Assembly: GCA_026874595.1 (NCBI GenBank)
Contig: CM049306.1
Span: 40,486,019-40,550,018 of the forward strand
Direction of reading: 5' to 3'
DNA from: Sipunculus nudus
Taxonomy: Eukaryota; Annelida; Sipuncula; Golfingiida; Sipunculidae
Length of the DNA stretch: 64,000 nt
Both the position numbers and the translations under genes were made by a program. The notes beneath the pieces are model-generated. The model ran no database searches. It was not told the DNA's origin and was given only the letters and a program-made list of their open reading frames with translations. Below are positions 23,648 through 63,228 of this stretch, piece by piece. Position 1 is the first letter of the stretch. Each line of letters begins with the position of its first letter.

Positions 23648-24082
23648 ATCAGCTGTTTTGATAATTAGTTCGGATACTGAACTTTCTATTGATATACTAC
23701 AGATACAAATCCTTAAATAATCTTTGTCCCTTCACATCTAATATATAATGGAACAAGTAACCCAAGGGCCATGACGCTCAGCAGCCAATTATGACCAATG
23801 ACATTTTGAGCTGATGTTTACAATTTCTAGTCAGATAAGGATAACCCAAATATGTGACCTTGACCTTCTGACACCAAAGTCGATAACGATCTTACTTTAT
23901 TGGTTAGTAACATAGAGTTGAATTCGGTATATCATTAACCAGTCCAAAGGGAATTAATCTTTTAAAACCAAATATAAAATAACTTTCACATGCATGTGAA
24001 CTTGACCTTCTGATTCTTCATTTAAGACTAGTTAAAGTGAAGTAAAATGCGTGTTTGAGTGAATACTGAACTCTCTGAAATA

Positions 24083-24402
24083 TCACAAATCGACTCTGAG
24101 CTCACTGCCGGCATGTTATACCATGCATATGCATCTTTCACGTTTTTGAGCATACTACATAGACCTAGAGAAAATGATTTAAACTAAGTTAGAATGTCAT
24201 GTTGAAATAACTCTGAAAAATAACATACACATACAAATTTATTTATTAATTTACATACGACATTAAAATAATAATGATAGAGGCAGCAGTCGTAGGATAC
24301 AATAGGACTACTATAGTTTAACTGTCTGGCACTTATGAATATCAACAATATTGTAACAGACAACAAGTAATTAATTATCACAGCATCTCCGATATATACG
24401 AT
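24083..24402. repeat. Block identical between the two duplicates
   Basis: About 318 bp here match about 45803-46120 base for base by eye, while both flanks show regular differences. There is no convincing coding frame. The 65-codon minus-strand frame is identical only because the DNA is. Confidence 0.7.
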
Positions 24403-24737
24403 AGCTCCATATCTGAATACCGTATATATAAATCTATAATATATATTACCTATTTATCACAGTTATCTTTGGCGCTTGTTACTTTGTGAAATGACTTACG
24501 GTAATAAGATGCAGTACCATTTACATGTAGATAAATTAAACCATACAAATGTGGATGTAATCTGAATTGTGTAATGTGTTAGTTTGAAATGATAATGTTA
24601 TATGACCATCATTTTTCCAGTGGAAGCTGAATCTGAATCTGTGTCAGATCACCTGCGGGTTGCCAGCACCGCAGGGAAACATAAAATGCATCAATACAAT
24701 ATGAAAATGCATTCACAACAATGAAAGGCACACAAAA

Positions 24738-26118
24738 TGGGATTTATTAATTTATTTATTATTATTTATTTATTAAAACATATTTATACAGGGTAGCCCG
24801 TTCAGACAAGATTGTCTGATCTGCCACAGGGCCCTGTTTGGGTATACAGTTTATTCAATGTATAAAACATGTAAAATGCAATCAGAATTAATTAAAGTGA
24901 CTCAAGATTAAATTATGCAGCAAGATGGGATATTTAACATGAAAATATATAACTATGACATTTAACGTAATATACAGCAAGATGTGATATTAAACATGAA
25001 TATAAAACTCTGACATGCAACGTTATATACAAGGCAATCATGAGTGTGACATAAATATGAAATATAACAGAGTTTGAAATAGCATGCAATATATGACATT
25101 TAAAGCACAGAGGTTTATTACATGATACTTTTTTTAAAGACCTGTAAGGAGGAGCAGTTTCTTTGAGATTGATTTAATGTGTTCCACAAAATAGGACCTT
25201 GGCATAAAAATGATTTCTTTAAGTAGTCTGTCCGAGGTTTGGGTACATATAATTTATTGGAATAGCTATTGCGTGTATCATATTGGGGCACTTGGCGAAC
25301 AAACGTGAACCGGTCGGTCATTTAACATTTAAACATAAGGATGCGAGTCAAATATTAATATCGTTGTTCAACTGATTTAATGTCAAGGGACTGACGGATA
25401 GCTGTTATGCTACATTCATGATTAAAATTGCGACTTATAATACGTGCAGCTCGATTTTGAAGACTTTGAATGGGAGTAAGACACGAAGAAGGCGCATTTC
25501 CCCAGATTGTGAGGCCGTAGTCAATATGTGGCTGAATCAGGCCAGTGTACATTTTCAATGCGGTGTCTTGAGGTATGTATCGACTGCACCTAAAGATGGC
25601 ACCTACTTTAGACGAGAGCTTTTTGCCTACTTGTTCAGTGTGATCCGACCATGTTAGGTTTTCATTAAGCACTAACCCCAAGTAAGTGATACTGTTAGAT
25701 TGTTTGATGGGCTGGTCAAATGCTGTGATATTAAGGTCTAAAGTCTCCATAGAACGGGATCTGAAGAGGATGCTTGATGTTTTTTCTATATTGATTGAGA
25801 GCTTATTATTATAAAACCATTTAGATGAGGTAGTGACGCCGTGTTGAAGTTCCTGTCTAATTTTGTTAGAATCATTACTTGTATAGTAAACAATGGTGTC
25901 ATCCGCAAAAAGATTACATTGACAATTGCCAGTGTTTCCAGTAAGATCATTTACATAAATTAAAAATAATATGGGTCCTAATACAGAACCTTGGGGTATT
26001 CCAGTTTTCATAGGATGCTGTGAAGATACTGCGTTAGCTTTTTTTACAGCATGAGATCTATCGGAGAGATAGTTCTTAATCAGTTCATGTGATTTACCAT
26101 GGAAACCGTAATGTTTCA
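24738..26118 (-). mobile_element. 5'-truncated non-LTR retrotransposon (LINE) fragment
   Basis: The minus strand encodes a reverse transcriptase from the middle of the fingers/palm to the C-terminus. It shows GIPQGSVLGPILFLIYVNDL, the catalytic FADDT (an F-A-D-D box), the TYLGLVLNENLTWSDH block and the C-terminal KPRTDYLKKSFLCQGPILWN phrase. The frame has two in-frame TAA codons (25355-25357 and 25322-25324), so it is dead. The 3' end is a TTTA/TAA-rich tail at about 24740-24778. No endonuclease domain is present, so it is 5' truncated. The clade is Jockey/CR1/L2-like, not resolved. It is absent from copy B, where the flanks 'ACACAAAATAGGAT' and 'CTGTGCCAAAAATGC' are almost adjacent. Confidence 0.88.
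25118..26118 (-). pseudogene. Reverse transcriptase, C-terminal part, with internal stops
   Basis: The longest open part is 26118-25358. Codons upstream to 26152 belong to flanking host DNA and are not part of the element. After the first TAA the same frame continues as YLTRILMFKC, a second TAA, then TDRFTFVRQVPQYDTRN and KLYVPKPRTDYLKKSF, ending at 25118. This is the conserved C-terminal tail of LINE reverse transcriptases. A few residues usually present between the two stops look deleted. Confidence 0.85.
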
Positions 26119-26168
26119 GGACTGTGCCAAAAATGCAAATGAACGAATACACGATCAGTATTTTATGG

Positions 26169-26510
26169 TTAAGTCATGTCCGCATAAATGCGTTTGTGCG
26201 TATATGCGTGAAAAAATATAGCACTGCTTTCATTTGCGCGTATATGCGCATATATGCATTAACTGGCAGATGTATATAGTGGTACATGGGAACTATCAGG
26301 TCTTCCTCGAAAAGAAGTGAGTGACGTCATTTACCCGGAATTACTTAGTTCACGAACACCCTACGCCTGAAAATCGCTCCTATATATATGGCGATTTTCA
26401 CGCATAAAAGGACACACGCTGGCGGACATTTGAAAAAGGCATAGTTACAAAATCATAGGAGCGTTTTTCATGCATTTATGCACATAGGCACACAAGGAAA
26501 CACAGCTTAA
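26169..26510. mobile_element. TTAA-flanked MITE, copy A ortholog
   Basis: Bounded by TTAA at 26169-26172 and 26507-26510. The right terminus 'GGAAACACAGCTTAA' pairs with the left terminus better preserved in copy B ('TTAAGCTGTTTTTAC'). The left end here has lost about 14 bases. It is present in both duplicates, so it predates the duplication. It is related to the element at 20791-21089. Confidence 0.6.
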
Positions 26511-27229
26511 AGTGTGTGAAATTCCTTTAGTATATAACTATATGTCAAGTTTTCTTGTTGTTGAAATAGTTTTGCTTATTAAGCTGACGCTCAATGTAAA
26601 CTACTTATAAGAGCATGCAGTGGAACCTCCATAATGTGGGCACCCTCATGGCTTGGCCGAACTGACCACTTTATAGAAGTAGAAGAGCTCCCTGTATGGA
26701 GGCCGTTACCGCAACATAAATAAAGAGGAGAGAAAATGGGACTGCCCATTTAAGACAGGTGCCAACTTTACTGGGGTGCCCATGCACTACGAGAGGTTCG
26801 ACTGTATTTAGAAATAAAAAGAAAATATTAAAGAAAATACTAATAAACTAGATAAGCCCACGTATTCGTGTTTACACAACCAAAACGTGATTTTAGCGAA
26901 GAAAGAAGAGTCTACCGTCAGCCCTGCGAGTGTGTCACAAACTTTCTTTGATTAAGAAACAATAACATCTGGATGCATCAGTTTTCACTGATGTAAAGAG
27001 ATGATAGTTTACCTACTGGAACTAGTAAACACCTTTAGTCTCTATAGAAGTATAAGTAATAGACAGACGATTATTCCCTGAAGTATACAGTGTAAGTTTC
27101 CTGCAGTTTTTTTTGTATACATCTTGACACGAATTACAGGCAGTGTCATATAAGTGGGCATAACAAAGTCCATCACTAGCTTTGCTTATTTGAACTGTAA
27201 ACACTTTGATACATTATAACCATGCGTGA

Positions 27230-27390
27230 ACACTTCTTTGTAGTTTGTCACATTATCCTTGTGTGAATACCACTTTGTCACTTTATTCTTGTGTGAATCC
27301 TAGTTTGTCACTTTATCCTTGTGTGAATCCTAATTTGTCACATTATCCTTATGTGAACATCAGTTTGTCACATTGTCCTTGTTTGAAATG
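27230..27390. repeat. Minisatellite of about 31 bp at the 3' end of FGD gene A
   Basis: About five imperfect copies of 'TTTGTCACATTATCCTTGTG' plus 'TGAATCCTAG'. The stop codon of gene A (27368-27370) lies in the last unit, so the array forms part of the 3' end of the transcript. A similar array is at about 47630-47780 in copy B. Confidence 0.8.
27282..27287 (-). terminator. Candidate polyadenylation signal for FGD gene A
   Basis: AATAAA on the minus strand (TTTATT on plus), about 85 bases after the gene A stop and inside the minisatellite. I see no equivalent hexamer in the copy B array. This is weak evidence because the hexamer is common in AT-rich DNA. Confidence 0.3.
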
Positions 27391-28578
27391 AAATGCCCCA
27401 CCGTCGTTGCTGCTGTGTTTCTTTGACATCACTTATCGGGTGGCTGGAAGTACTGATGGTCTTCTGGAATACTTGCTGCCACCTGTCAAACAGTTAAAAT
27501 TATTCTTCAGAGTGTGTTAATGTGTGAACAGAAAACATAGAAAACTCAAGTCATACTAGTCGCATCCTACAGCCATTCTGAAATATTAAGTGTCTACAGG
27601 TCTTAAAGGACCAGCTAGGAAACAATTTCATTAATAGCCAGGTTTAAACTTTTTATACATCTCTGATATATATTGAGGACACGTCAGGTTACTTACGACT
27701 TCAGCTCCTCTTCCTCCGAGGTTTGTAACAGGTAGCTTTTGTTCTGGCCTCTCAGGCTGATGACGTCACAGCCGTTGTCAGGGTGGGGTTGCGTCTCAAG
27801 AGAGAATTCTTCAAGTCGGAGGAATGTCTGGGATTGTTTGTTCTGTGGAAAGCAGCGAATGTATTTACAATCTGAACATAATAAAGAATCTTATAGATAC
27901 GGTCTCGCATGTAAGCTTCTTTTGATTTTTACTGAACTTCTTCGTCCCTAAACAATGCTGACTTTTTATAGCATGATTAAAGTAAATGAAACATTAAACT
28001 GGTCAAGGATTAATACCTATTTTTATATTAAAAAAAGCAATAAGGTGTTAAAGCAGACAGTTTGAACGCAAGGTTATGCTATCAATAACTCCCAAAACAC
28101 AGAACTGGAAGAAGACCTATGATATTGTACAAAAGAGTATCGTGTGGTCGGTTCCACAACGGGCTGCCCACTGAAGTTAGCAGATGTTTTTACCCAAGAG
28201 TCTGTAATTAAACAGATGTTATATGTTATTTTTATATGATCGTTACATCAATACGAGTGAAAACAACTACATATAATTTGCATACAATTGAGTTATTTTA
28301 TATTTGAAATGGGTTAATTTTTAATACGTTGATACTGTAGTACATTTTAAAACAAACAAATAGTAATTGATCTGTAAGAATTAGGAGCGGCGATACCATG
28401 CACAAAGATTTTTTTCGTGTGTCCTATAAGATATATTATGATATGGTACCTGGGGTCCTTGATGAGCCATGAGTGTGCCGTCACTGTGTACAACAAACCA
28501 GTACCTCCGCCACGTCTTACCGGCGTCACTGCTCATGCGCATGTAGCCGCTTTTCAGACCCCCGCTGAGGGCGCGGGG
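27368..28578 (-). CDS. FGD: FGD copy A, exons 14-16: second PH domain and C-terminus
   Basis: Exons 28578-28450, 27842-27697 and 27482-27368, residues 588-716. The second PH domain shows SGYMRMSSDAGKTWRRYWFV and LETQPHPDNGCDVISLRGQN, closing with the conserved PH tryptophan in ELKSWQQVF. The last exon then adds a 31-residue tail reaching into the minisatellite. It ends FQTRTM before TGA. Copy B stops 15 residues earlier. The acceptor of exon 14 is 'TTTCAAG' here against 'TTTCCAG' in copy B. Confidence 0.88.
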
Positions 28579-31500
28579 CTTGAAATAACAAACACAATAT
28601 AGGTTGGAGTTGTTTTAAACATTTGATTCCTGTACAGTACAGTTTTTGTCAATGAGAAGTATGTATTTATAAAAAGCATTTAAGGCCATGAAGAGAACAG
28701 TGGAAGAGGTTCGTTTATTATTTAATAGTCATATAAAAAGTAATTATCCAGCCCGATTTTGTGTTCTACTCCTTTCGAATATATACATGTATACAAACAG
28801 AAACATACATGGTCCAAATGTCTCTGTCAGAAGTAAGGACATTTGTAGGTTGCAATACAAGCCAGACGCTTCATAATTGTTTTCTTACTGGACTTTATAT
28901 ATTTAACAGTGTATAAATAGTAAAATTAGATATCTTAGAACTAATAAGCGCCTTTTTCAGTCAAATGTGACCCTTTTAATAAGACTGACTTGGCTAGCCT
29001 GTATGTTCAATTCTGCATAAAACGAAAAGGTTAAATATACAAAAATGAAATGAATGAAAGATTATAAAATTTTCGGTGTCTCAAAAGGTGCCCTTATCGC
29101 TGAACTAAAGAGTGATATTCAAGATTTATGTATAAACAACCATAATACTCAATATATTAAAAATGAACTAAAAATACTACATGTTGATCAGAGGTTCAGA
29201 GTTAATTAGGTCCAAAAGCACTCGTACACAAAGTACTCGCGCTCATGAGTACTAACTTTCTAGAGTACTAAGTACTCGTACTTGAGAGGGGTATACATAC
29301 ACATAGAGTACACGCCAAATGCTAGAATGTTTGTACATATGTATAACTATTCCGTTCGAAAGAAATAAAAGGAGATGTATCAAAGTAATTATAAATAGCT
29401 AAAAACCTAAGCTCACCTGATTTCCATTGTGCGATTTTTCCTGCAACACGACGAAACATTCATCGCAAACACGCAGTGGTTTCGACGAATCGTACTCAAG
29501 CCGAACACTCTGAGACGAGCACTTCCCACAGACCACCTTTTTAGTTGAAATTAACAAAATGACAAAAATTATAATTAATTCACTGATAAATGTTCTTGAA
29601 ACGCGGCTACATAAGATGAGTACTTCTTCCGGAATTCTGTCTTCGATCTAGACTGAACATTGTAACACACCCATTTAAATAATTATTGAAACTGATATAA
29701 GTAATTAACAACAGGTTTGGTATTGTGAAATGTACCTTAATAAAACATGATACTCAATATATTTAGCATTGACTGAAACCCTACATGATGGTCAAACAAT
29801 ATTCATTTGACATTTGAGGACACATACCTCAGATCCTGAGAAACTGACAGTAGCAATTAAAATCATGGTTACATTTATTTTATGTATGCAGCAAACCGTT
29901 AATTAGATTTACAGATAACCCGTATCAGAAATAAAATGATTTTTTTAGGAATGTGTGACTTACAATACCACAAGCTCTGCAGTGATGTCTTCTCCGTAGA
30001 GTGGTGAATTCAGACCCGCATACCGTGCATGTCACACTGTCACTGTTCCTCGCCAGCACTGGAGCCTGGCGACCTAATCGTAAGCCCTGTAAAAACACCA
30101 AAACGGCAGCTCCGGAAATTTGGTACTATCCAAACGTAATTAGCATATTTATAACGATTTAATTCTAAATATGAAGGTTACGGATTACACAAAATAAAGG
30201 TTAGGCCTATTATATAGCTCTCACTAAATGTAACAAGACATTACTAGAAAAAAATAGGCCCTTATCTTCAGAAGCATATACTGACACTTGGCAAGCCACC
30301 AGGGTTTCTTCAGGTGTGATCTTCAAAACCATGATCAAGGTCACTAGTCTCTTTCAACAACTTATCATCTGACATCTTTCATTTTGATTTTGAGACTGAT
30401 ACATCTATCGACATGAGAAACAATATTTTTTATCAAATATGGGAATATTCAAGGTCAAGACCACTTTCACAGGAAAGGTCATGACCCCAATTTAAATATT
30501 CCTCATTCCATAACCCATATCTATGTATATGCAAATATGAAAGTATTCCATTAATTTTGACTTATAATGCTCACAGTACTGTGAAGTGGCAATGTTGGGG
30601 GTATTAAAAGGCGTGAAAACAAGAAAAGGACAAAAGATGGCGTCAACTATCTTCCGCAGAAGACAAAGCTATCCTAGATCTTCGGTCAAAATGATCTTTG
30701 GACCAATCCATGCATCCCTTATTGAGATATTAAAGATTTTGTGCGATTTTTACCAAATATGGAAATATTCAAGGTCAAGGTCACTCCCCTAGTAAAGGTT
30801 TTGATCTATTTGACGTTACAGTTCTTGCTAATTAATCAGGCCTGACTGCAGGTATATCAACCGCAGCGTCTGCCATCTGTTAGCGACACTGACGGGGAAA
30901 ACGCAAATTTTAGTTGGAAAGGAGAATAAAGAATCATATTCCAGACAGCTTCCTGATAAATAACTCTTTCAAGAAAAAGGCCGTTGACTGTCAAGAGAAG
31001 GATATCTGTCTGAAGCCTGACCTTGATTGTGCCTCCCCGCACCCTGACAGAACCGTGGCGCATCAGTCGATTCCTTGTCGTCTCTCCAATACCTTCTCGA
31101 ATGACCTGAAAAGAAGTTCAGACAGCTACGTGTGAATTATCAAATAAAGCATGTGATAGATGCGTTAGTACCTATGCCAATTAATATCCCAATTATCACA
31201 TGAAAATCAAATGTAACACATTTTATATCCTTTTATTTTGAATACAAATGAAGTCTCATTTAATCGGAAATTTTACACACAGTATTATATATTATACACA
31301 GCAACCTCATGCTGTGTAAAAACATAACGGATTCCTTTTTTCAAATACGTACATCTGCAGAATATCATTATCGGGTTCGGTCTACGTCACGTCATGGCGG
31401 TTATCCTAACGTCAACTAGGCTACGAGTACCTCACCCACGGGTCCTTGGTGTGTCCTTGGCGTGCCCTGGGTGTCCTGGGCGTGCCCTGGGTGTTTCCTG

Positions 31501-33741
31501 GGCGCTGGCCCTGGACTACTTTCATTTTAACATTAAATATTTGTCTGCTTACTTGAATCCACTCCTGCTTTTCCTCCTCCGTCGGGGTACACAGTTCCAG
31601 CGCCCTCTGGCGGTTCCGTATGTAGAACGTATTTGGCACTTCCAAGTTGTTTCCTTCAGACACCTAAAAGTGGCACAATTACATATTTTTTATACAGAAG
31701 AGTGCACATTGATTCTTTTGATTCCTGTCTATATATGGCGTATTTACATGTATGCGTTTTTATTTGTATAAAAAGGGTATCAGTACTTACAACACTTGGG
31801 TAAATACTGAAAAGTCACATTGAAAATATAGGAAGAGGCAAATTTATTCTTGTGATCTGTATATATGTATATACGTAGGCATTCATGCGAAATTTTTGGG
31901 TAAAAACAATAATATAAAGGCTTATAATATGTATAACGTATGTACAGCATGCGAGATTTTTGGGTAAAACAATAAAATCAGTGCTTTTTATAGGTATTAC
32001 ACCATTTACAATAATTTGGGTAAATACTGAGAATACCGGAACTTGCAAAATTATTCTTGTGAGTACGTATATGTATATAAGTGTGCGTGTATATGAGGTT
32101 TTGGGGTAACATTTTTTATCAGTGCTTAATACAAGCATAAATTAATTACAGTAATTTGGACATATACTGAATTGTTAAATTGAGAACATTGGCTTATTGT
32201 ATTAACTAGGCTTACCCTCAGTCCTTGTATGTCCATGACCTGTCTGACCCGGTACCTGGCAGATAAACTTTGTTCTGAGCACACCAACAACATGTCTGTA
32301 AACTGTAAATATATCAACAAAACAGCATTCAATTTGCGTAAATATAGGTATACAAATACCATGAATACCTATATAAAAGTCAATTAAAGGGGGATAATCA
32401 GGAACAATATTATGCCTATTCTTTTACACCATCAGTTCAGATTTACTTTATACGAAAGTTCTCCAGCAAATCCATCCCAGCACAGTACCGCGCATACGGC
32501 TATTTAATACCTTGTTATGGCTCTATGTGTTTGCAAACACAGTCCACTTGTGTCTGCATGTTTAACATACAAGGTCGATTGGTCCGATTGTGAGCCGCAA
32601 CACGCTATGATTCAGCCAGCGGGAACATGTATTACATTTTTTTTAGACCAAAGCAGTCAAGGCATCCCCTGATTGACACGTGTTGTGACACGCGCTGTGT
32701 TTATAATTACATCTGTGATCGTGCCGGGTCCACTGTTTTTAACACTCGTTTACAGGAATGAGTAAACTGTTTCAAGTCAATATTATAGCAGATACATATT
32801 TATTTTTAACGGGAAAAAAACTATTTTTCGTGTTAGTTCAACATGGTTTATATGTGATTGGACCCCTTTAATCAATTGTAAAAAAAGGAAAGGTAATAAA
32901 AGGAGCTTAATACACATGAAGTCGTCATCTTTCCAGTTGTAAGTGATATCCTAGTTATATGTTTTTTTTTAATGATACAAAACAAGAACAGCGTCCATCG
33001 CATTAGTGTTTGTTTTAAAATTTGAATTTTAAAATGAAAATATCTAGTACAGCAGTACCTGATATGTATTAAACTTAAAATTACATTTAGATACATTTTC
33101 TTGCAACATTCTCATGGCAAAGTCCTTTATTAATATGATGACAGCGATATCATTCAACAAAACACACGTACGAGGAAGATATATCGTTCCGAAGTGCCCC
33201 CGCTCCTCACATTGACCTTGTTGATCTTTCCCTCCTTCAGGAGTTCTCGCGAGCCCTTGACGATATTCACGTCCCCATCCAGACGACTCTGTAACTGCTG
33301 TAGCTTCTCTACTCGTGACTGAAAATGTATACAGCAAAAATAATCCCGTTTCCATTTTACGACAAGTGTAAAATATCTTCCAAGTGTAAACCGTTATTAT
33401 ATGCAAATTATTTTGGTGATTCTTATAAAACAGTTATGCCTCAATATACTGCTTATTTGTGTCGGCTTCATATAGAAGGCCATATACAAATATAGCCACA
33501 GTACGTCTATATATGTGTGTGTGTGTGTTTACGATGTTTGCATTTATAAAGGAAATTAACTTACCGCTCGCCGCATCATTTCTTCAAAATGTTGAGCTGC
33601 CTTGGCCACAAGAGATAACGCCTCTAAAATTTGAATAACCCACAATATAACACAGGATATTTATGGCAACAAGAAGAGCGGCTCCCATTTCCAAATGACA
33701 CTTTATTGTACTTACTGTATGAACCATATTAATGCAATATA

Positions 33742-33794
<53 letters not shown>

Positions 33795-41699: not shown

Positions 41700-41700
<1 letters not shown>

Positions 41701-41741: not shown

Positions 41742-41744
<3 letters not shown>

Positions 41745-47780: not shown

Positions 47781-47815
47781 GCTGTTCCATATGAAATGCC
47801 CCTCTACCGTTGCTG

Positions 47816-49403
47816 CTATGTTTCTTTGACGTCACTCAGCGGGCGGCTGGAAGCACTAATGGCCTTCTGGAATACTTGATGCCACCTGCCAAACAGTTAA
47901 AATAAATCTTTAAACTGGGTGAATGTGTGAACATGAAACATTTTGAAACTACAGTCATACTAGTCACATCCTACAACCATTCTGAAATATTAAGTGTCTG
48001 CAGGTCTCAATGGACCAGGAAATAATTTCATTAATAGTAGTAATTTCATTAAAACAAAATTAGATTTATAAAACCTGATCCATCAGCCAGGTTTAACCTA
48101 TTAGGCCAAAAAAAGTTTTGGTTCTCGGGCACTTTTTTTTTCCAAAAATCAGTGTGGGCGGGCGATATTTATTATTATTTTTTTTTACCTTTTTTATTGT
48201 TTCGATAAAAATATCATATGATCAGGGAAAAGCATGAAAATAACAGATTTTTTTGCTGAACAGGTAAAAGCACTACATAACAAAGGAAATCTGATCAAAA
48301 TTGTATATTTATCTTGAAAGATGAAATCAAACTGTTTTTGATGCGGGGGATTAAAATTGACGCGGGCTTTGCCTGAGAACCATACCTTTTATTTTTTTTT
48401 TGGCCTTATACATCTCTGATATATATTGAATCGGCTTATGCGGCAAAATCCATAGTCTAAATAGACAACCGTGGCGGTGATTCAAGATCACCTCAACCGT
48501 GTCTGTCAAATAACTAAAAAACTAGATCCTAGTCCTAGGACACGTCAGTTTACTTACGACTTCAGCTCCTCTTCCTCCGAGGTTTGTAACAGGTAACTTT
48601 TGTTCTGGCCTCTCAGGCTGATGACGTCACCGCCGTTGTCAGAGTGGGGTCGCGTCTCAAGAGAGAATTCTTCAAGTCGGAGGAATGTCTGGGATTGTTT
48701 GTTCTTTGGGAAATAGCAAATGTATTTACATCATGAACATGAAAATGTATCTTATAGATACGGTTTCGTATGTTAGCTTCGTTTGATTTGTAAACTGTAC
48801 ATTTTCGTCCTTAAACAATGCTGACATTTTATTAATTTTTATTACTTTTTAAAGTAAATGAAACATTAAACTGGTCAAGGATTTTTATATAAACAATAAC
48901 GTGTAAAAGCAGACAGTTTGAACGCGTGGTTATGCTATCAATAATTCCCAAAACACAGAACTGGAGGAAGACCTAATATTGTACAAAAGGGTATAGTGTG
49001 GTCGGTTCCACAACGGGCTGCCCACTGAAGTTAGCAGATGTTTTTACCCAAGAGTCTGTAATTAAACATATGTTATCTGTTATTATGCTGTGATCGTTAC
49101 ACCAATACGAGTGAAAACAACAGCATATACTTTGCATAAAATTGAGTTATTTTTATATTTGAATTTTTTTATGTTGATGCTGTAGTACGTTTCAAAACAA
49201 ACAGTTACTGATCCGTAAGAATTAAGTTCGGCGATACCATGTGTGTCCTGTAAGATATAAAATGATCATGATACCTGGGGTCCTTGATGAGCCATGAGTG
49301 TGCCGTCACTGTGTACAACAAACCAGTACCTCCGCCACGTGTTACCGGCGTCACTGCTCATGCGCATGTAGCCGCTTTTCAGACCACCGCTGAGGGCGCG
49401 GGG
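47816..49403 (-). CDS. FGD: FGD copy B, exons 14-16: second PH domain and shorter C-terminus
   Basis: Exons 49403-49275, 48703-48558 and 47885-47816. The PH2 sequence contains DAGNTWRRYWFV and LETRPHSDNGGDVIS. The last exon reads SWHQVFQKAISASSRPLSDV and ends KET before TAG at 47816-47818, where copy A has a CAG glutamine codon. The protein is 15 residues shorter at this end. Confidence 0.88.
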
Positions 49404-52400: not shown

Positions 52401-54710
52401 CCCCACCTGTTTTTTGCTATGCAAATTTTTATAAGTTACATTTCAAGGAAACAATTATAGTGGAGAGTAGAGGATTAAAGGACCTAATTTTCAACAAGGT
52501 AAATAATTACCTACCTTACACCTTATTTAAGAAACAGAATTATTTGAAAATATGAGAAATCAGTCTACATTTTACAACATATCAGACCCACTTATGACGG
52601 TCAAGGTCATTGGTCACATGCAAAAACAGCCTCAAATGACATTTGCTGATTGGATGATCTCATGTAAACACTCTAAAAATATAACCAGCTCAAACAACGA
52701 TGGCTACTTATCGTGGGACACATCATATCTGCTAAATCATGGTGAAGAGATTAAAATGTTGTGAAACATAAACGGGGGAATTATTGTAAGATTCTTAATT
52801 GCCACATTAGGTTGTCACCTCCATATGTAGTTTCCTAGGAAATAATTGAAAAATATAAACTTTTAAGGGAATTATCTTCAAAAAACAGGTGGACAGCAGG
52901 TGGTGAAATGGACTATAGGTGTGAATTATCAAATTAAGAATGTAATAGATGCGTAGGTACCAAAGCCAATTAATATCTCAATTACCCCATGACAATCAAA
53001 TGTAATATATTTTATATACTGTTATCTTAAATACAAATGAAGTCTCATTTGATCTGAAATTTTACACACAGTATAACATGTTACACTCAGCAGCCTAATG
53101 CTGTGGAAAAACATAACGGATTCCTTTTTTCAAATACGTACATCTGCAGAATATCATTATCGGGTTCGGTCTACGTAACGTCATGGCGGTTATCCCAACG
53201 TCAACTAGGCTACAAATACCTCACCCACGGGTCCTGGGTGTGTCCTGGGCGTGCCCTGGGTGTCCTGGGCGTGCCCTGGGTGTGTCCTGGGCGCTGGCCC
53301 TGGATTACTTTCATTTTAACATTAAATATTTGTCTGCTTACTTGAATCCACTCCTGCTTTTCCTCCTCCGTCGGGGTACACAGTTCCAGCGCCCTCTGGC
53401 GGTTCCGTATGTAGAACGTATTTGGCACTTCCAAGTTGTTTCCTTCTGACACCTAAAAGTGGCACAATTACATATTTTTATACAGAAGAGTGCACGTTGA
53501 TTCTTTTGAATCAGTTCTTATGACATAACAGTTGGGTAAATACTGTAAAGTGTCATTGAGAATATAGGAAGTGGCAAATTTATTCTTATGTATGTAAGTA
53601 TGCGTGTATGCAAAATTTTTGGGTAAAAATGATATCAATGCTTATTACATGTATTACATATTTACAGCAAGCAAGATTTTTTGGTGAAAAATAGAATCAG
53701 TGCTTTTAATATGTATTGCAATTTTGGTAAATACTGAAAGGTTTCACTGAGAATACCGGAACTTGCAAATTTATTCTTGTGAGTAGGTATATGTTTTAGA
53801 GTGCGTGTATGTGAGATTTTGGGGTTACATGTTTTATCAGTGTTTATTACATGCATCAATTAAATACAATGATTTGGACAGATACCGAATTGTTAAATTG
53901 AGAACATTGGCTTATTGTATTAACTAGGCTTACCCTCAGGCCTTGTATGTCCATGACCTGTCTGACCCGGTACCTGGCAGATAAACTTTGTTCTGAGCAC
54001 ACCAACAACATGTCTGTAAACTGTAAACATATCAACAAAACAGTATTCATGAATTTGCGTTAATATAGGTATACAGATACCAAGAATACCTATATAAAAG
54101 TCATTTAATTAATTGTAAAAAATGAAAGGTAAAAAAGAGGAGCTTAATACACATAGAGTCGTCATCTTTCCAGTTGTAAGAGATACCAGTGTTATATAGT
54201 TTTTATGATACAAAACAAGAACAGCATCCATCTCATTACTGTTTGTTTTAAAATTTGAATTTTAAAATTAAAATATCTAGTACAGCAATACATGATATGT
54301 ATTAAACTTAAAATTACATTTAAATACATTTTCTTGCAACATTCTCATGGCAAAGTTCTTTATTAAGATAGTGACAGCGATATCATTCAACAAAACACAC
54401 GTACAAGGAAGATATATCGTTCCGACGTGCCCCCGCTTCTCACGTTGACCTTGTTAATCTTTCCCTCCTTCAGGAGTTCTCGCGAGCCCTTGACGATATT
54501 CACGTCCCCATCCAGACGACTCTGTAACTGCTGCAGCTTCTCTACTCGTGACTGAAGAATGTATACAGCAAACATAATCCCGTTTCCATTTTACGACAAG
54601 TGTAAAATATCTTCCAAGTGTAATCCGTTATTGTATGCAATTTATTTTGGTGGTACGAAAAAACAGTTATGTCTCAAAATTCTGATTATTTGTGTCGGCT
54701 TTATAAGGAA

Positions 54711-54765
<55 letters not shown>

Positions 54766-55102
54766 GTATATGTATATATATATAGATATATGTATATATA
54801 TATATATAGATAGATAGATAGATATCATGAGAAAAAAGTCCTATATGGCCGAATATTTTAAACTTTTATATAAAATTTGGACTGAAATATGAAATGGTGT
54901 TTTTCCAGGGATGCTATTCTTTGTTTAACCTACACATGTCCAAACGTTTAAAATGTATTATTAGGTCAGCATATAAGAGTTACATTACAATGTGGTTACA
55001 TACTATTAAAACTGATTATTCAATCGGAATTTTACTTATGGTATTATAACCCCTTTATAAGTCTTTTTGTATAATCATATACAAATATAGCCACACTACG
55101 TC

Positions 55103-55144
<42 letters not shown>

Positions 55145-58048
55145 ATTTACCGCTCGCCGCATCATTTCTTCAAAATGTTGAGCTGCCTTGGCCACAAGAG
55201 ATAATGCCTCTGAAATATGAATAACCCATGATGTAACACATGATATTTATGGCAAGAAGAAGAACAGCTCACGTAACCAATATTAATCTAATTTATACGC
55301 AATGATCTGTCATTCTATTATATATATATATATATAATATATATTACATATATTTACATATATATATATATATATATATAACATAATATTAAATATGAAA
55401 TTTCCAGAAATAGTCGCACTAGACAGCCAAAGATATCACCGACAACTCGACTTGTATATGTACACATGGCTTGATAAATGTTCCTGCAATGCAGGTGGCC
55501 AAGACACCGACTTCAGAGGGCCAATTTCCGATTATTACTTTTTCAATAAATTCAAGAAAAATACTTCATTCGGTGAAACCGATCAAAGTGTATTTAAACA
55601 CACCCTGTGCATCCTCCAGATCTATGGCATCTTCAGCTAAATGCTTTATATAATCTGAAAAAAAAAGAGAAAAACGGGATAATTCACATAAAAGATAATA
55701 ATCTATATTAATTGGAATACTTCATTGTCCCTCTCAAACATGCGCATAAAAGATAAACAACATCTGTCCAAAATGCAAAAACGCACATGTTTTTCCGCAT
55801 GAAGTCAGATACTTAGCGCCTTGCCAATTGAGGTGAAACTACTCTTTAGCGGACAGTCATGGGATCGGACGATTTGTCCGTTATGGCGGGGTGTCCGCCA
55901 AGGCGTGGGACGGAGAGACATCTTACTCAATATTAATAGCCTCTACGTTCATATTGCATGATAAAACGTTTATTTCAACTTGTTGATTTTAATTATTTAC
56001 TTTTAATTCAGGCTATTACTATTTAATAGATAATTTAAGTCATTAATTGTCGGAAAACAATTTAAATACACTTTCACATTAAGTAATTGAATGTACACAT
56101 TTTCACCATCAGTGAACCATCATGTATATTTTCAAGAAGGTACCTCTCAGTAATTATTACCTTTGAGCAACAATTCATATCTTGGAACTCTCTGAATTGG
56201 CTCCAACATGTGAGCTTCTATACGTACTCTGGCATACTCGTCTTTTTCCTGTGAAAGAGGTTCACCTGATTAAATTTTCTCCTCCAAACATTTTTGGGGA
56301 CTATCATGCACGCAATTCACAGGATACATAAAAGATATCTCAAAATGTTTTTACAACGGATGAACTGTCGAATATTTAATACTGGCCATTAAAGAGACCC
56401 AATCACCTATAAAGCATGTTGAATTAACACAAAAAATAACTTATTCCCAAATTAATGTGTGCCTGCCAAAGTATGGCCTTGAAACAGTTTGCTTACTTTT
56501 GCAAACGAGTGTTAAAAACAGTGGACCAGGCGCGATCATAGGTTTCAACATAAACATAGTGAATGGGGCCATATGCATCGCGGAGAAGCAACACGTGCTA
56601 ATCAGGAGATGCCCTGACTGACCTGACCCAAAAAATGTAATACATGTTCCCGCTGGCTGAAACACAACGTGTTGCGGCTCCAAATCGCACCTCCGGTCAC
56701 GCGGCTTTGTTTTGGTAAGCAGACACACGTGGCCTGTGTTTACCAACACGCAGAGCCATAACAAGGTGTTAAACAGCCGTATGCGAGGTAATGAGACCGT
56801 GGGATGGTTTTGCTGGGAAACCTTTGTATAAAGCAAAACTGAACTGGAAGTGTGAAAGAAAAGGCATAATATAGCCCCTGATTATGTCCCTTTAAATAAA
56901 GAAGAACATTGTAAAGATTAACCAAGTAATAACCAAGTCTACACACAAATAATGCATAATGCACTTTTTAAATTGGATGTGTATGTGGAAACCTACTAAA
57001 AATAATTATGTGGATGATTATAAGGGTAGTGTCCTCTTTTAGTATTCAGTCGCGTTTTCCTAACTACTTATATATCCATTATCCGTAAAAACTTTTACGA
57101 GGATGTAAGACAAATGCACAATATAAGCGATTTTCACCCAAGGCAAACGGACGGATGCACGACACGCAAAACAAATTGCACATGACGCCACCAGTCTTGA
57201 GTACGCGATGGAGGTGTCAAATATCTATGGACATGCACAATTTCTGTCCAAAAGGGCAAATCACTCCTGTGAAAGGGGTATCAGTGAATTCTAAGACAAC
57301 ACGAAGGTAGTTGGCGCCACCTGTCAGGTCTACAAGAATACTCTCCAAGATGGATGGACATGCAAAATTTCAGACCAATACATTGAACCAATCCTGAGAT
57401 ATGAGTGATTTTCTCCAAAAGCAAACGCATGGATGGATGCCACGCAAATACGATTACAGATGCCCAACTACCATGCATCTGTCTTATATAAAACAACGAC
57501 TGAATAATCAAATTTAAAATATTTGTTTAATATTCACCTATATTTCCGACCAGGGATGATAGTTAGGCACAATAATAGTTAAATATGTAAAACTGTTATA
57601 AATAAAGTATGCTGTAAATGTTTCGAACATGTTCCCCTGTTTACCTGTATATCTCTAGTAAGGATTAAGAATTCAGTTGACTTGGTCTTCCACTGCTGCA
57701 CCAGATCTGAAGCCTTCTCGAAATTCTTGACGTATTCTGTGTAAAGTTTGAGGAAAGGAGCGAACCTCTTCATGATATCGCCAATCCTAGCTGTATCATC
57801 CCTGCGTAAACAGAAACAAATAGTATCCATATAGACGTATCTATATAGGTGGCCAACTGAAGGGTCTGCATGATTAACTGATCCCGTGAGAGAAATAAAT
57901 GTATAAAAGAGTCAGATACTGTAACGTATACATAGAATGAGGGGAGCAATATTAATTTAAAAGATGACATGACACTGGAATTAAGGTCCATGCGGCAGTA
58001 GCCGAGCTATGCGAGTTAATATGATACTGATCTGCAAATTATAAAAGA

Positions 58049-58121
<73 letters not shown>

Positions 58122-61100
58122 GAAAGAAAGTTCTATATGGTCTAATACAAAAAAAACTTTTGGATTGATTTTAATTGGCGTTTTTTCCAGGTAGGCTAGC
58201 TTAAGGTATAAATAGGAAAATATCCCTGTTTCACCTACACATGTCCAAACGTTTAAACCCTATTATTAGGTCAGCATATGCGAGTTACATTACAATGTGG
58301 TATTAAAACTGATTATTCAATCCGAATTTTATATATTGTATAACCTTTCTTTAATCTGACAAACGGAATTTATCGAATGTCTCCTTGCAAGAGTGGACAA
58401 ACTTCGTTTGAGCGCTTCAGATACCTTGTTTCTTCAGTGGCCGTTAAAGGGACATAATCAGGAGCAATATTATGCCTATTCTTTCATACTGTCAGTTCAG
58501 TTTTGCTTTAAACAAAGGTTTCCTAGCAAATCCATCCCAGCACACGGTCTCAGTACCTCCCATACGGCTGTTTAACATCTTATTATGTCTCTTGGTATTT
58601 GTGATTACAGTCCACGTGTTTCTGTTTACCATAACACAGCCGTGTGACTGGAGGTCTGATTCTGAGCCACAACACCGATGTTTCAGCCAGCAGGAACATG
58701 TGTTACATTTTTGCGGTCAAGTCAGTCAGGGCATCTCATGATTTGCAGGTGTTGTGGCTCAGCGATGCACAGAGTCCCACCAACTTTGTTTATGCTGACA
58801 CCTGTGATTGCGCCCGGTCCACCGGTCCACCGGTAACACTTGTTTACAAAAGTAAGCAAACGGAATCAAGGCAATATGTTGGCAGGTACCAATTTATTAT
58901 TGCATATCATTTATTATGCAGTTACTCTAGCTTTTGGAGCTTTTTTGTTATTTTTGTCAGGGGTGCTAGCTTAAAGTATACAGTATGAAAATATTCTCTG
59001 TGTCATCTACGCATTTCCAAACGTTAATAATTTATTATTAGGCAGCATATGCGAGTTACATTACAATATGGTATTAAAAGTGATTATTCAATCCGAATTT
59101 CATATATGGTATAACTTTTCAATAATCTGACAAACGGAATTTATCGAATGTCTCCCTGCAAAAGTGGGCAAATTTCTTTTGAAATCTTCAGATACCTTGC
59201 CCCTTCAGTGGCTGTTAAATATATTTATTTATATTTGCCCGTCTTGTAGAAGGACCTTGACTGTTATTAGAACTTAGATATAGGGTGTTTACTCATATTT
59301 CATATTGACTGGTTCTCTTAAATATTATGGAAGGTAGGTATAATGCTCCCTTGCCGCCAGTAATGTTCATGCTTCAGATTTTGTACAGTTCATTTTCTTA
59401 ATACATCTTCCAGTTGAAACAAAAACATCAAGACCAGATGGAAAAGGTGTGCTGACACCAATAAGTGGATATATACATGATGTAAACATACATGCCTGTC
59501 GCATATTATTATTATGCAGTAACTCTATCGTTTGGAGGGGGAATAGAGGCTATATGTAAAAACCATGTATTACTAACCCTGGAAATATCAATGAACAGGT
59601 ATCTTCACTACAACAGCGTGTAGGTGTAATGTACGGTTAAAATGCACAGATATATTCAGTTTTTATGAATATTCCCCGTTTGATCTGTGATAACCTACCA
59701 TTCTGCCAGCCTCTTCTTCAGTTGGGGAAGAAGATTTTCTGAGTGGAACTGGTGAATGACGTGGACGTCCTTGAATATACATTTAACAGTTTCTTCCGGT
59801 AGAAAAGCAGAGACCTTTTCTTTCACCTGGCGATAAAATTAAAATGCAGAAACTGTTAAGTTTTAATCTCCAACCTTGCATATTGATTGATAAGTGAAGG
59901 AAAGTTAAGACGGGTAATAAATATATATCAGTATAAATCATTTATAGTGTTTAAGCGGAATTGAAAACAGGTTCTAAACTTGAATGGCTTTGTTTTTGCA
60001 GCGCAAAAAACATACATCTGTCTCCCCTATGGGCCATCCCAAAACATTAGGGGTAAAAATGCACTTTATCAAAACAATGATTCTTGATTTCAGCAGATTT
60101 TACCTTGAAGATCAAGGTCAAGGTCAACATTTTTCGAACTCCGAAAAGATTTTGGCAGAAAGAACTGGTGTGTTCAATTTGAAGAAAAAATCTTCAGTAC
60201 TTCCAAAGTTATGGGGTCACAAAAATAATAGAATTTCATAAATTTGACCTGGAAGATCAAGGTTATTGGATGCCGAACTCCTCCGAGATTTTGGTCAAAA
60301 CAATGAGTTTCAAAAATTTTGAAGGAAAATAAACAGCCCTTCAAAAGTTATCGCGTTTACACGACAATAATTATAACTCGGCTGATTTGACCTAAAAGAT
60401 CCTGGTCAAGGTCACCAGGTTTCGAACTCGTCCGAGAACTTAGAAGGAACAATCAATGTAGCATATTAGAAGACAAAATGTGAAATACTTCAAAAGTTAT
60501 TGCGTTCAGAAAAGGTCACCGGGTTTCGAACTCTTCCGAGATTTTGGGATACACAAGGAGTGTTTCATATTTTGGAGGAAAATATGCAGCCCTTCAAAAG
60601 TTATCGCGTTCACATGATATCCCACAGACGACGACGACAGGCGACGACAGACGATGGCACTGAAAACAACATGTCTCCTCTGGAGGGGGAGGGGCAAAAT
60701 TTGAATCGCATGTTTTTTTTCGAGAAATCTTCCGAATTTCAGATTTTTCTATGTACACTGGACAAAGTTTTAATAGCAGACGTGCCATAATAGGCCTTTA
60801 ATCTATCATCTGATCGGATCGCCGAAGTTCGGTTGCAATTCATAATATTGATCAATCCGGCCTATTAAGTGTAATTACAGGTCACCTACCCATACAGTTT
60901 GTAGCCGTGCACTCCATTTTAAGCATCACATAGATTTATCAATCCCATTATCATTAAGCTGTACACCACAGGTTTTATATTTTTTTGTATTTTCGCTTTT
61001 TATTCTTGTAATCAAGCAATGAACAATATTCCCAGTTCTGTAGTGATATTACCTTGAGCAGTATTTCAAGACGGTCGACGTAGGCCTGTTCTGTTTTTAG

Positions 61101-62381
61101 TAGCTCCTGTGATATGTTGTTGATTCTACGTTTTCGCTTGGCCTCGGCTTGTTCCTCTGCCGTAATGACCGGAGTTGGCGGTGTACTGGTCGCCTGTGTA
61201 CAAAAAGAATGAATCGCCGTAATTTCACTGAAAGAGTGACCGGAGAGCAAAAAGGTCGGTCGTCGGGGATTCCATGCACTATTTGTCGATATGCGCAACA
61301 TGTGACGAAAAAAATATTTAAAAACTTCAGGAACTAATTTCGGAAGAAGCTTGTTTGCATAGTCCAGTCCTCTTTCATTAACCTAACTCTTGCACGTGTA
61401 TATTAAAAATAAATATGTACTAGCACGCTGTAATTGATGAGACCTTGCAAATGTTTTTTTTTATTTCAATATAAACATAATGGAATACGATTCTATGTTC
61501 AAGATGCGTAGCAAGGAATCACAGCTTCATAAACGACTGCTCTATGAAAGCTGTAGTTTGTTGCTCTACAGACATGTATCATAATAGCCTTGTAATGAAT
61601 CATTTTATGATCGCATCCCATATCTTCCCAAGGACGCATTGTCATCCACTGACTATACCCTTTATCATTTTAAAGGATTGCTCATTGAAAATAATGAACA
61701 TGGGCGAACTAATACACTGGGACACCATGACGCTTCCCGATCGGCCGATGTCATAGTCAAAACTGATGCCTGTGGGCGGATGGTGTGGCCAAAGTAGGCC
61801 TACTGATGCGATTGGCAGATGGTGTAAAATTTGGGCCGCTTTAACTCAAATTTCCAGGGCAAATATTGCTCACCCAAGTGCGCGGCGTGAAATAATAATT
61901 CAGTAATACTCACATCTTCTTGTGCGTCTGTGGGCGATAATGCATCACCAACTGCGTCTTCATATTCGCTCTCGTCGCTGCTTTCATCACTCAAGTCACT
62001 GAAGCAATCAAACCAAGCGTCCTCATCAGAGTCACTGTCGTCTGCTTCTGACTGGTTCCTTGTTTTCCCGCTAGGTTCTGGCTGGTCAGATACCTCAGAA
62101 TGCGAGGTCTCATCTGATTTATTATCTAGTCTTGAGTTTCGATCCGTATTGCTGTTGCTGTCGTCTGCTATGAGCGCAGCTGCCTCGTTCTGACTTGAAC
62201 ACGTGGTATCATTCCCTTCATCGCTGTTTAAAGTGGTTTGTTCATCAGAGTTCCCATTATCGTCCACCTTATCAACTTTGATGGACCGGCGGTTGGAGTC
62301 ACGTCGTCGGAATCCATCACAGCGGCGTAACTTAGAGTTTGATCTGGTTACTCTTTTCTCCTCTTCCTCTGAAGCTGCCAT
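47816..62381 (-). CDS. FGD: FGD-family RhoGEF (DH-PH-FYVE-PH), copy B, 16 coding exons
   Basis: Exons in transcript order: 62381-61914, 61193-61053, 59826-59699, 57801-57645, 56248-56161, 55654-55604, 55209-55151, 54551-54405, 54020-53934, 53452-53342, 52364-52281, 50902-50780, 50370-50251, 49403-49275, 48703-48558, 47885-47816. All junctions are GT..AG, phases match copy A and the total is 2109 bp, 702 residues plus TAG. DH, PH1, FYVE and PH2 are complete. Changes from copy A cluster in the acidic N-terminus and C-terminus, while exons 3, 5, 7, 8, 9 and 10 give the same protein. That pattern suggests both copies are, or recently were, under purifying selection. The copy is a paralog or an alternative haplotype. 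Confidence 0.93.
48101..48408. mobile_element. TTA-flanked MITE, copy B only
   Basis: TTA at 48101-48103 and 48406-48408 flanks inverted termini 'GGCCAAAAAAA' and 'TTTTTTTGGCC'. Copy A at about 27645-27655 lacks the insertion. A three-base TWA target with GGCC-type termini fits PIF/Harbinger-derived MITEs. That assignment is inferred, since no transposase is present. Confidence 0.7.
50251..50902 (-). CDS. FGD: FGD copy B, exons 12-13: FYVE zinc finger
   Basis: Exons 50902-50780 and 50370-50251. All eight cysteine ligands and RRRHHCRACG are kept. WxxD is replaced by RNSD as in copy A. Differences include a first-residue serine for glycine, APVMARN for APVLARN, and EKLYNGNQ for EKSHNGNQ. Confidence 0.92.
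51753..52071. repeat. Old dispersed repeat inserted in copy B
   Basis: Not present at the matching site in copy A (about 30808-30812). It contains 'ACCATAGTATCCCCGAC' and 'GGGGATACAATT', phrases also echoed at about 17212-17240 ('GCGGATACTATGGTTTCAGT'). Confidence 0.6.
52281..54551 (-). CDS. FGD: FGD copy B, exons 8-11: end of DH and first PH domain
   Basis: Exons 54551-54405, 54020-53934, 53452-53342 and 52364-52281. Protein is the same as copy A except VIRDRIG for VIREGIG at the start of exon 11. PH landmarks ERYIFLFTDMLLVC and EWIQ are retained. Confidence 0.92.
52386..52917. mobile_element. TA-flanked MITE, copy B only
   Basis: TA duplications at 52386-52387 and 52916-52917 enclose inverted termini 'TAGTCCGTTTCATCCCCACC' and 'GGTGGTGAAATGGACTA'. 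The empty site in copy A reads 'CAGCTACGTGTG' at about 31122-31133, with a single TA. The length is about 530 bp with no transposase frame. The TA target is typical of Tc1/mariner-type mobilisation. The superfamily is inferred only from target size. Confidence 0.8.
53220..53297. repeat. GC-rich minisatellite next to FGD exon 10, copy B
   Basis: Counterpart of 31437-31513, here more regular: 'GGGTGTCCTGGGCGTGCCCT' repeated three to four times. Confidence 0.8.
54712..55074. repeat. Microsatellite cluster plus extra copy of an intron repeat, copy B only
   Basis: A (CT)n run (about 54713-54754), TA/GATA repeats (about 54755-54822), then about 230 bp related to 58120-58350 and 36908-37150. These are absent from the matching intron of copy A (about 33475-33485). 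Confidence 0.7.
55118..55140. repeat. (AC)n microsatellite beside FGD copy B exon 7
   Basis: About eleven AC repeats ending ten bases before the exon 7 donor site. Copy A has only a short (GT)n about 35 bases further away. Confidence 0.85.
55151..61193 (-). CDS. FGD: FGD copy B, exons 2-7: DH (RhoGEF) domain
   Basis: Exons 61193-61053, 59826-59699, 57801-57645, 56248-56161, 55654-55604 and 55209-55151. CR1 ELLKTEQAYVDRLEIL, CR2 FLKLYTEYVKNFEKA and CR3 LEPIQRVPRYELLLKDY are intact. Differences from copy A are few: T to K in CR1, STEFLILTRDIQ for SSEFLILTRDML, EDAIDLED for EEAIDLKD. Confidence 0.93.
56389..56895 (-). mobile_element. TTAA-flanked MITE (AGGGRCATAATCAGG family), copy B only
   Basis: TTAA at 56389-56392 and 56892-56895. 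Termini are 'AGAGACCCAATCACC' and 'ATTATGTCCCT', so it is inserted in reverse relative to 32384-32871. The empty site in copy A is 'GACCATTAAATAAAGAAG' at about 34837-34854, with a single TTAA. No transposase frame is present. Confidence 0.85.
57180..57440 (-). repeat. Inverted relatives of the 278-bp array, in FGD B intron
   Basis: 'ATGACGCCACCAGTCTTGAG', 'TTGGCGCCACCTGTCAGG' and 'AAATTTCAGACCAATACATT' repeat phrases of the 16.9-18.2 kb array on the opposite strand. Shorter than the copy A counterpart. Confidence 0.55.
58051..58115. repeat. (TA)n microsatellite in FGD copy B intron
   Basis: About 32 TA repeats. Copy A has no such run at the matching place (about 36900). Confidence 0.9.
58444..58898 (+). 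mobile_element. MITE of the AGGGRCATAATCAGG family, right end missing
   Basis: Starts with TTAA at 58444-58447 and 'AGGGACATAATCAGG'. The body matches 37928-38445, but it stops after 'GGCAGGTACCAATTTATT', lacking about 80 terminal bases. The empty site in copy A is 'GTGGCTGTTAAATATATT' at about 37221. The missing end abuts the copy A-like tract at 58946. Confidence 0.75.
58946..59544. repeat. 599-bp tract nearly identical to copy A, extra in copy B
   Basis: Matches 36971-37569 with one visible mismatch, while copy B already has its own diverged version of the first half at about 58120-58447 and a trace of the tail at about 58899-58940. It therefore looks like an added copy of A-type sequence. 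Confidence 0.8.
60100..60625. repeat. Tandem array of about 143 bp in FGD B intron
   Basis: The phrase 'GAAGATCAAGG' or a variant starts at about 60107, 60250 and 60393, with a shorter fourth unit. Each includes 'TTCGAACTCCTCCGAGATTT' or similar and 'CTTCAAAAGTTATCGCGTT'. Only a partial unit survives in copy A (about 38447-38530). Non-coding. Confidence 0.75.
61914..62381 (-). CDS. FGD: FGD copy B, first coding exon: N-terminal low-complexity region
   Basis: 156 codons beginning MAASEEEEKRVTRSNSKLRR, with the same basic-then-acidic layout as copy A and one extra codon before the donor (AQED against AQD). The acceptor AG directly precedes the ATG. Several charge-altering substitutions distinguish it from copy A. 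Confidence 0.9.
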
Positions 62382-62716
62382 CTAGAAGCCTATAAATTAA
62401 AATTGACATAAACTCAATACAAGTCTAAATTATATGATATGACATATATAGGATACCATGGTGAGTCTGCTTAGTGAAATGCTTGGTCTAGGTTTAGCAC
62501 CAGACGTGCATACACACCCGCGAGTTATTTGATTGGTTTAATTGCCTTGTTCATTATTCATGAAACAGACCCTTAGAGCGGTTCCTGAATAATGTCTGCG
62601 AAGACGTAGCCAGTACAGACTTGATAAATGGAGATGATTTATCTTTATATAATCTTACACATATTTAACTATATTTTTACGTTATATATCATAGTAATTT
62701 ATTTAATATCTTTCAG

Positions 62717-62975
62717 GCTCAACCTCACGGGGTTGGATGGTAAAACACTGTATACATGTTCACTTTGCCACGAAATGCCAACTGACCAAACAAACCCCTT
62801 TTGTATAACAAAACCGAGGTTTATCATTGCAAGTATTAACACATTACGAAGCATAAATTCAGTGAGTGACTGTATACATGGTCACTTCTTTGTCACTGAC
62901 CAATCCACTATTACACGTAATCCACCTCTTGTAGAAATGAATGCCTCAGGCGTGATAGACCTAATTCTCTCGTGA
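62717..62975 (+). other. Exon-like open frame of unknown identity, antisense in FGD B intron 1
   Basis: After acceptor-like 'ATATCTTTCAG' the plus strand stays open for 86 codons to TGA: LNLTGLDGKTLYTCSLCHEM, then FCITKPRFIIASINTLRSIN and NPPLVEMNASGVIDLILS. It has a CxxC pair and unbiased composition unlike the surrounding AT-rich junk. I recognise no family and see no partner exons. The copy A counterpart is frameshifted, so it is likely a relic or non-coding. Confidence 0.3.
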
Positions 62976-63161
62976 CTGGTCGTAAGGCCATGCAGCGTAG
63001 CCTTGTAAATATGGGGGGAGGTACATAATTTGTATTGCGGCATGCCAATCTAAGATAAGAACAGGATAAGCGCGATTATCGGTTCTCGAAAAAAGTACGA
63101 ACTGATGTTACGCACGTACCGCCCCCATAAAACTAGGAAAAAAATATCAGCAGATACTTAC

Positions 63162-63228
63162 CTCGTTGATCCAGCTTTACAAAACGTTCAGTTATATCTC
63201 GGGGCCTAATGTATATATACATTGTTTG
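63162..63228 (-). promoter_or_regulatory. Candidate non-coding first exon and TATA-like element, FGD copy B
   Basis: Same as 41006-41072: 'GCTGGATCAACGAG' before a GTAAGT donor at 63161-63160, and TATATA at 63211-63220. Similarity to copy A ends at 63228, so everything further upstream is different DNA. Confidence 0.5.

Follow-up and report, generated by a model that had tools for sequence, protein, structure and literature searches.

Probable head-to-tail duplication of an FGD-type RhoGEF gene in Sipunculus nudus

Two closely similar genes for an FGD-type RhoGEF stand side by side in a 64,000-nucleotide stretch of the Sipunculus nudus genome (the window; C1:40486019-40550018, C1 being contig CM049306.1 of a 1.43 Gb, 153-contig assembly), and their presence raised the question of whether one gene has been duplicated in tandem or two haplotypes have been placed one after the other during assembly. 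FGD proteins are regulators of cell shape that act as exchange factors for Cdc42. From the sequence of the window and of 20 kb on either side of it (104 kb examined), we consider it highly probable that the pair is a real tandem duplication in which both FGD-type genes are intact, and not an assembly error. This confidence covers the core claim only, i.e. the tandem duplication and the two intact genes, and the steps of the history proposed below are less certain.

Two complete genes in adjoining units

Self-BLASTN revealed that positions 23635-41072 (numbered from the first base of the window) are collinear, in direct orientation, with 45357-63228, the matching blocks being mostly 78-97% identical, with two pieces of 72% and 75%. 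These matches, together with the complete gene models described below, agree with a first-pass annotation of the window, in which a complete gene was proposed to be duplicated head to tail in segments of about 17.5 kb. In contrast, the 4.3-kb spacer proposed in the same annotation did not stand, since much of it lies inside the duplicated units: 42081-42731 matches 64582-65301 (77.5% identity) and 43467-44708 matches 65314-66575 (86.8% identity), both beyond copy B. Because parts of the supposed spacer recur there, the units appear to be about 21 kb long (21.1 kb for unit A and 21.2 kb for unit B) and nearly abutting, with unit B extending 2.6 kb beyond the end of the window. Within the units, 41073-42080 and 63229-64581 showed no match to each other, and 42735-43457 is present in unit A only. 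Homology upstream of the ATG reaches about 4.5 kb in gene A and about 4.2 kb in gene B. Each unit thus contains a complete gene in direct orientation, as in a tandem segmental duplication. The units and the genes that they carry are as follows:

23635-44708, minus strand: duplicated unit A, collinear with 45357-66575, comprising gene A and sequence on both sides of it (the 3' flank and about 4.5 kb upstream of the ATG)
45357-64000, continuing to 66575, minus strand: duplicated unit B, collinear with unit A
27368-40200, minus strand: gene A, FGD-type RhoGEF, 16 exons, 711 aa (spliced model; Pfam)
Gene A exons 1-8, minus strand: 40200-39736, 39012-38872, 37851-37724, 36644-36488, 34690-34603, 34096-34046, 33623-33565, 33318-33172
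Gene A exons 9-16, minus strand: 32302-32216, 31663-31553, 31105-31022, 30086-29964, 29536-29417, 28578-28450, 27827-27697, 27482-27368
47816-62381, minus strand: gene B, FGD-type RhoGEF, 16 exons, 697 aa (spliced model; Pfam)
Gene B exons 1-8, minus strand: 62381-61914, 61193-61053, 59826-59699, 57801-57645, 56248-56161, 55654-55604, 55209-55151, 54551-54405
Gene B exons 9-16, minus strand: 54020-53934, 53452-53342, 52364-52281, 50902-50780, 50370-50251, 49403-49275, 48688-48558, 47885-47816

The spliced models reproduced the two 16-exon genes of the first-pass annotation, with all phases closing and with exon lengths that are identical except in the first and last exons. Exons 2-15 are equal in length between the genes (14 of 14), exon 1 measures 465 nt in gene A and 468 nt in gene B, and the coding part of exon 16 measures 115 and 70 nt, respectively. 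In both genes the reading frame is uninterrupted from the ATG to the stop codon, and the intron borders are GT/AG. Because the splice borders were set by eye along the paired reading frames, the GT/AG ends are partly a product of construction, which is not the case for the shared borders and the open frames.

The FGD-type identity put forward earlier was confirmed by the domains that Pfam recognized in both proteins and by a structural match. The RhoGEF (DH) domain (PF00621; E value of 4.2e-38 in protein A and 5.9e-39 in protein B) is followed by PH1 (PF00169; residues 392-484 in protein A and 393-485 in protein B), the FYVE domain (PF01363; E value of 1.8e-18 in both) lies C-terminal to PH1, and a second PH lies C-terminal to FYVE; Pfam reported two PH stretches per protein, of which only the better one was located. 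The C-terminal FYVE-PH2 piece matched PH domains, with that of FGD6 (PH2, 1wgq) being a weak match (E value of 0.075) that ranked behind the PH domains of other proteins. RRRHHCRACG and LRVCDEC are present in both proteins and contain the basic RRHHCRACG motif and the RVC motif of FYVE fingers, while WxxD, a motif of classical FYVE fingers, was not seen in the FYVE domain of either protein. The best match of protein A among solved structures was the DH-PH-FYVE part of FGD5 (3mpx; E value of 2.3e-44, residues 181-580), followed by FERM-RhoGEF 4gzu and then by the FGD6 DH domain 9jb3. The N-terminal region of about 180 residues is acidic and serine-rich and has no Pfam match, and NCBIfam (a prokaryote library) gave no match with protein A. 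The FGD assignment stands at the level of the family, subgroups FGD1-4 and FGD5/6 taken together.

Divergence, selection and near-identical tracts

Proteins A and B are identical at 656 of 696 aligned residues, and the 40 differences are unevenly spread: the first 180 codons contain 19 of them, DH, PH1 and FYVE (369 codons together) contain 9, the stretch between PH1 and FYVE contains 2, and codons 583-690 (PH2 and tail) contain 10. Amino acid changes are significantly more frequent in the N terminus than in DH, PH1 and FYVE (19/180 versus 9/369 codons; Fisher p = 0.00011), with no difference in synonymous changes between the same regions (rounded counts; p = 1). It had been noted earlier that the changes spare the DH and PH1 core and gather in the termini, and these counts bear this out and add FYVE to the conserved part. 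A comparison of nonsynonymous (dN) and synonymous (dS) divergence in the coding pair, which had been suggested as a check, gave a dS of 0.081 (bootstrap 0.057-0.111), a dN of 0.027 and a dN/dS of 0.33 (bootstrap 0.20-0.51), consistent with purifying selection. By region, dN/dS was 0.26 in DH, 0.07 in the linker and PH1, 0.04 in FYVE, 0.63 in the N terminus (bootstrap 0.31-1.56) and 0.81 in PH2 and the tail (codons 583-690), these being values from approximate domain limits and small per-domain counts. Positive selection is not shown by these data, because the N-terminal interval includes 1, as it would also do under relaxed constraint. The pattern is consistent with two functional proteins under relaxed constraint at their ends, and because DH, PH1 and FYVE are conserved in both, both copies are likely to have Cdc42-type exchange activity.

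Outside the exons, copies A and B differ by 10.0% over 12,912 reliably aligned non-coding sites and by 10.8% in introns. Nevertheless, the A-B alignment, with a background difference of 9.1%, contains mismatch-free runs of 449 nt (37121-37569) and 320 nt (24076-24395), as well as a further run of 186 nt, whereas the longest run obtained in 2000 site permutations was 152 nt; rate variation and constraint are not covered by these permutations, because they assume that sites are independent. The stretches concerned, together with two other features discussed below, are the following:

36971-37919: high-identity tract, exon 3 and part of intron 3, 97% identical to 58946-59897, with the 449-nt mismatch-free intronic run
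58946-59897: partner tract in copy B, adjoined at 58114-58448 by an 82.7% version of part of it
24076-24487: second high-identity tract, in the 3' flank, with runs of 320 and 91 nt; partner at 45798-46210
40201-41072, minus strand: region upstream of the ATG, unusually similar to 62382-63228 in copy B
24747-26115, minus strand: 1.37-kb block present in unit A only, with a reverse-transcriptase fragment

The near-identical tracts probably reflect later ectopic gene conversion. The exon 3 tract suggests copying from A into B, because copy B retains the 82.7% version alongside. A scan of the window with Rfam for structured RNA in the near-identical tracts returned no family at the gathering score. 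Immediately before the ATG, the copies differ at only 3.8% of 845 aligned sites, versus 10.8% in introns; this region may have been kept similar by conversion or by promoter constraint, and it may hold a promoter or a 5' untranslated region.

Each unit also holds sequence of its own. Inside the units, 11 blocks of 100 bp or more are specific to one copy, 5 in unit A (2,888 bp) and 6 in unit B (2,337 bp), a 756-bp block at the end of the alignment and outside the units being excluded. In the 1.37-kb block of unit A, the open reading frame at 25358-26173 (minus strand), which runs slightly beyond the block, matches RVT_1 (E value of 7.6e-18).

Real duplication or joined haplotypes

Of the two possibilities left by the first-pass annotation, a tandem duplication with both copies kept is supported by the intact gene models, the absence of N, the lack of evident overlap at the junction, the 11 copy-specific blocks and the dN value. 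A false (haplotypic) duplication, in which A and B would be allelic versions of a single gene from a highly heterozygous animal, joined by the assembler, is disfavoured and appears to us very unlikely. An assembly gap between the copies would mark a false duplication, and no N was found in the 104 kb. The junction passes from inside a truncated repeat straight into unit B, and no overlap on which an assembler might have joined two alleles is evident there. Both dN (0.027) and dN/dS (0.33) exceed the values that a passage of PMC8270832 gives for OctA alleles in the hyperdiverse barnacle Balanus improvisus (dN of 0.005-0.007 and dN/dS of 0.04-0.11; one gene, four adults). A third copy was not detected either: with a 2.5-kb upstream and 5'-gene probe, for which the best 40 of 742 candidates were scored, only A and B matched over the probe length, the other hits matching short repeat-like parts of the probe, and with the FGD protein no other locus exceeded 57% identity among the best 64 of 101 candidates. 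Of 28 FYVE matches across the assembly, one further neighboring pair was seen at the same model positions (C3:11.28 Mb); its two stretches showed no BLASTN match to each other, in a comparison that disregards physical overlap of the two fetched loci, and this also speaks against joined haplotypes. The flanks contain no second copy within the 104 kb beyond repeats of up to 1.9 kb, an observation that fits haplotypes as well as a real duplication.

Several points weigh on the opposite side. The divergence between A and B (dS of 0.08; 10.8% in introns) is undecisive by itself, because hyperdiverse animals reach such values; in the part of PMC8270832 that deals with them, allelic diversity is given as 8% in Ciona savignyi, 16% in Caenorhabditis brenneri and about 20% in B. 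improvisus, so that the 8-11% neutral divergence seen here is within their range, and divergence was rejected as proof against alleles given that neutral diversity of 8-20% is reached. The number of copy-specific blocks depends on the alignment, because some of them lie in poorly aligned stretches, and the near-identical tracts could alternatively be constrained non-coding sequence. As for the gene models, the true first exon may lie further upstream than exon 1, because an AG immediately precedes the ATG in both genes, and a further 5' exon or an intron in the 5' untranslated region is possible; the join of exons 14 and 15 and the short last exon are likewise predicted from the sequence model.

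Two other explanations accept that the duplication is real. It might be a copy-number polymorphism, found on one chromosome or in part of the population, and a single assembly would look the same whether the duplication is fixed or polymorphic; however, the dS of 0.08 and the 11 copy-specific blocks suggest an old event, and old events are more often fixed, so that we regard this sub-case of the best explanation as unlikely. Decay of one copy into a pseudogene would be in line with the earlier stop of copy B, 15 residues before that of A, and with the fast evolution of the N terminus and PH2, but neither copy has a frameshift or a premature stop in the modelled exons, and with DH, PH1 and FYVE conserved such decay seems quite improbable. 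Taken together, these observations argue for a real tandem duplication with two intact genes, which is fairly old and an ordinary event in a well-known family.

Junction, surroundings and proposed history

The following feature separates the two units:

44709-45375, plus strand: truncated repeat-family copy at the unit junction, 0.67 kb, its far end missing where unit B starts

The last 19 bases of this repeat overlap the start of the A-B match. A search for the family, in which the best 40 of 205 candidates were scored, found it on many contigs, with at least 92 matching pieces (the junction copy included) at 78% identity or more. In the 7 members that were compared, the match starts at 44702-44711 (exactly at 44709 in 3 of them), and both members inspected at the other end run on past 45375, where the junction copy stops. 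In 4 of the 7 members, parts of the first 100 bases recur further on in inverted orientation, which suggests terminal inverted repeats. The best stretches of the 7 members are 90-97% identical to the junction copy (a difference of 3-10%, and of less than 6% in 6 of the 7), whereas unit A differs from unit B by about 10%. The repeat is therefore probably younger than the duplication, although the duplication may instead have arisen at this repeat. The joined parts share a 17-base imperfect similarity, which was equalled by 146 of 2000 shuffles, and no microhomology is claimed. Recombination between flanking copies of the repeat was also rejected as the origin, since the 7 members gave simple-repeat matches only with 23000-23900 and no match with 66300-67400.

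Elsewhere in the assembly, the protein search detected two more loci with similarity to several FGD regions, both on the contig and strand of the pair, at C1:63.40-63.47 Mb and C1:106.43-106.45 Mb. Their DH, PH-region and FYVE exons are 33-69% identical by exon (small pieces), a much greater divergence than that between A and B, and they stand outside the tandem pair. Other weak matches (e.g. on C2, C8, C14 and C16) involved a single region each, mostly FYVE, and other RhoGEF loci were dropped as FGD relatives, 2 of the 8 examined having matched the proteins weakly (25-32% identity). About 15 kb to the right of unit B, a reading frame at L012:8059-8400 (plus strand) resembles actin-related protein 8 (4fo0; E value of 1.7e-16), and the 104 kb contain no other copy of it. 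At the left end of the window, 1898-2227 and 3467-3884 belong to a cluster of direct and inverted repeats that includes a 94% inverted pair of 330 bp, and further left, at window coordinates of about -11980 to -4560, two GC-rich (59%) segments that are 87-94% alike form an inverted pair with long overlapping open frames and are possibly retroelements.

A history that would account for the locus begins with the head-to-tail duplication of a segment of at least about 21 kb that carried a single whole FGD-family RhoGEF gene along with its upstream region. Both copies would have remained intact under purifying selection as the introns drifted about 11% apart, and copy-specific blocks would have accumulated in both units, at least some of them as mobile-element insertions. 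Some time after the duplication, the repeat element probably entered unit A close to its right end, and the far end of the element would then have been lost, along with the original junction, in a deletion. To judge from the near-identical non-coding runs, ectopic gene conversion probably re-homogenized at least two stretches.

By analogy with the family, the DH-PH1 module most likely loads GTP on a Cdc42-type GTPase, and FYVE and PH2 most likely position the protein on phosphoinositide-bearing membranes. The positions of the changes suggest that the catalytic role is most likely common to both proteins and that N-terminal regulation and PH2/C-tail targeting would differ. That the copies are diverging in role, the core being held alike by selection and by the exon 3 conversion as the N terminus and the PH2/C-tail change, is a tentative idea that we rate at clearly less than an even chance. 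If true, the animal would have two Cdc42 activators with the same chemistry and a different regulation or membrane address.

The locus leaves the general view of FGD proteins and of gene duplication unaltered. It offers a worked example of a suspicious adjacent pair that, where the assembly has no gap, probably represents a true tandem duplication. It also provides an intact RhoGEF duplicate pair whose catalytic module and regulatory ends differ in their rate of evolution, and which carries probable conversion tracts. A literature search on FGD/RhoGEF tandem duplication in molluscs and on invertebrate FGD phylogeny found no paper, although one may still exist.

Haplotypic false duplications likewise consist of adjacent diverged copies of one gene. 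A passage of PMC9516828 names half read depth, gaps between the copies, discordant linked reads and single-copy k-mers as their marks and describes them as usually gapped and at half depth, whereas A and B, known from sequence alone, are joined without a gap. In the order of their domains, DH-PH-FYVE-PH, proteins A and B are the same as the FGD family (human FGD1-6 and Caenorhabditis elegans EXC-5), and they are set apart by the acidic, serine-rich N terminus. The worm protein EXC-5, according to a section of PMC8021397, is an orthologue of the FGD RhoGEFs that is able to activate Cdc42 and acts upstream of CDC-42 in tube extension.
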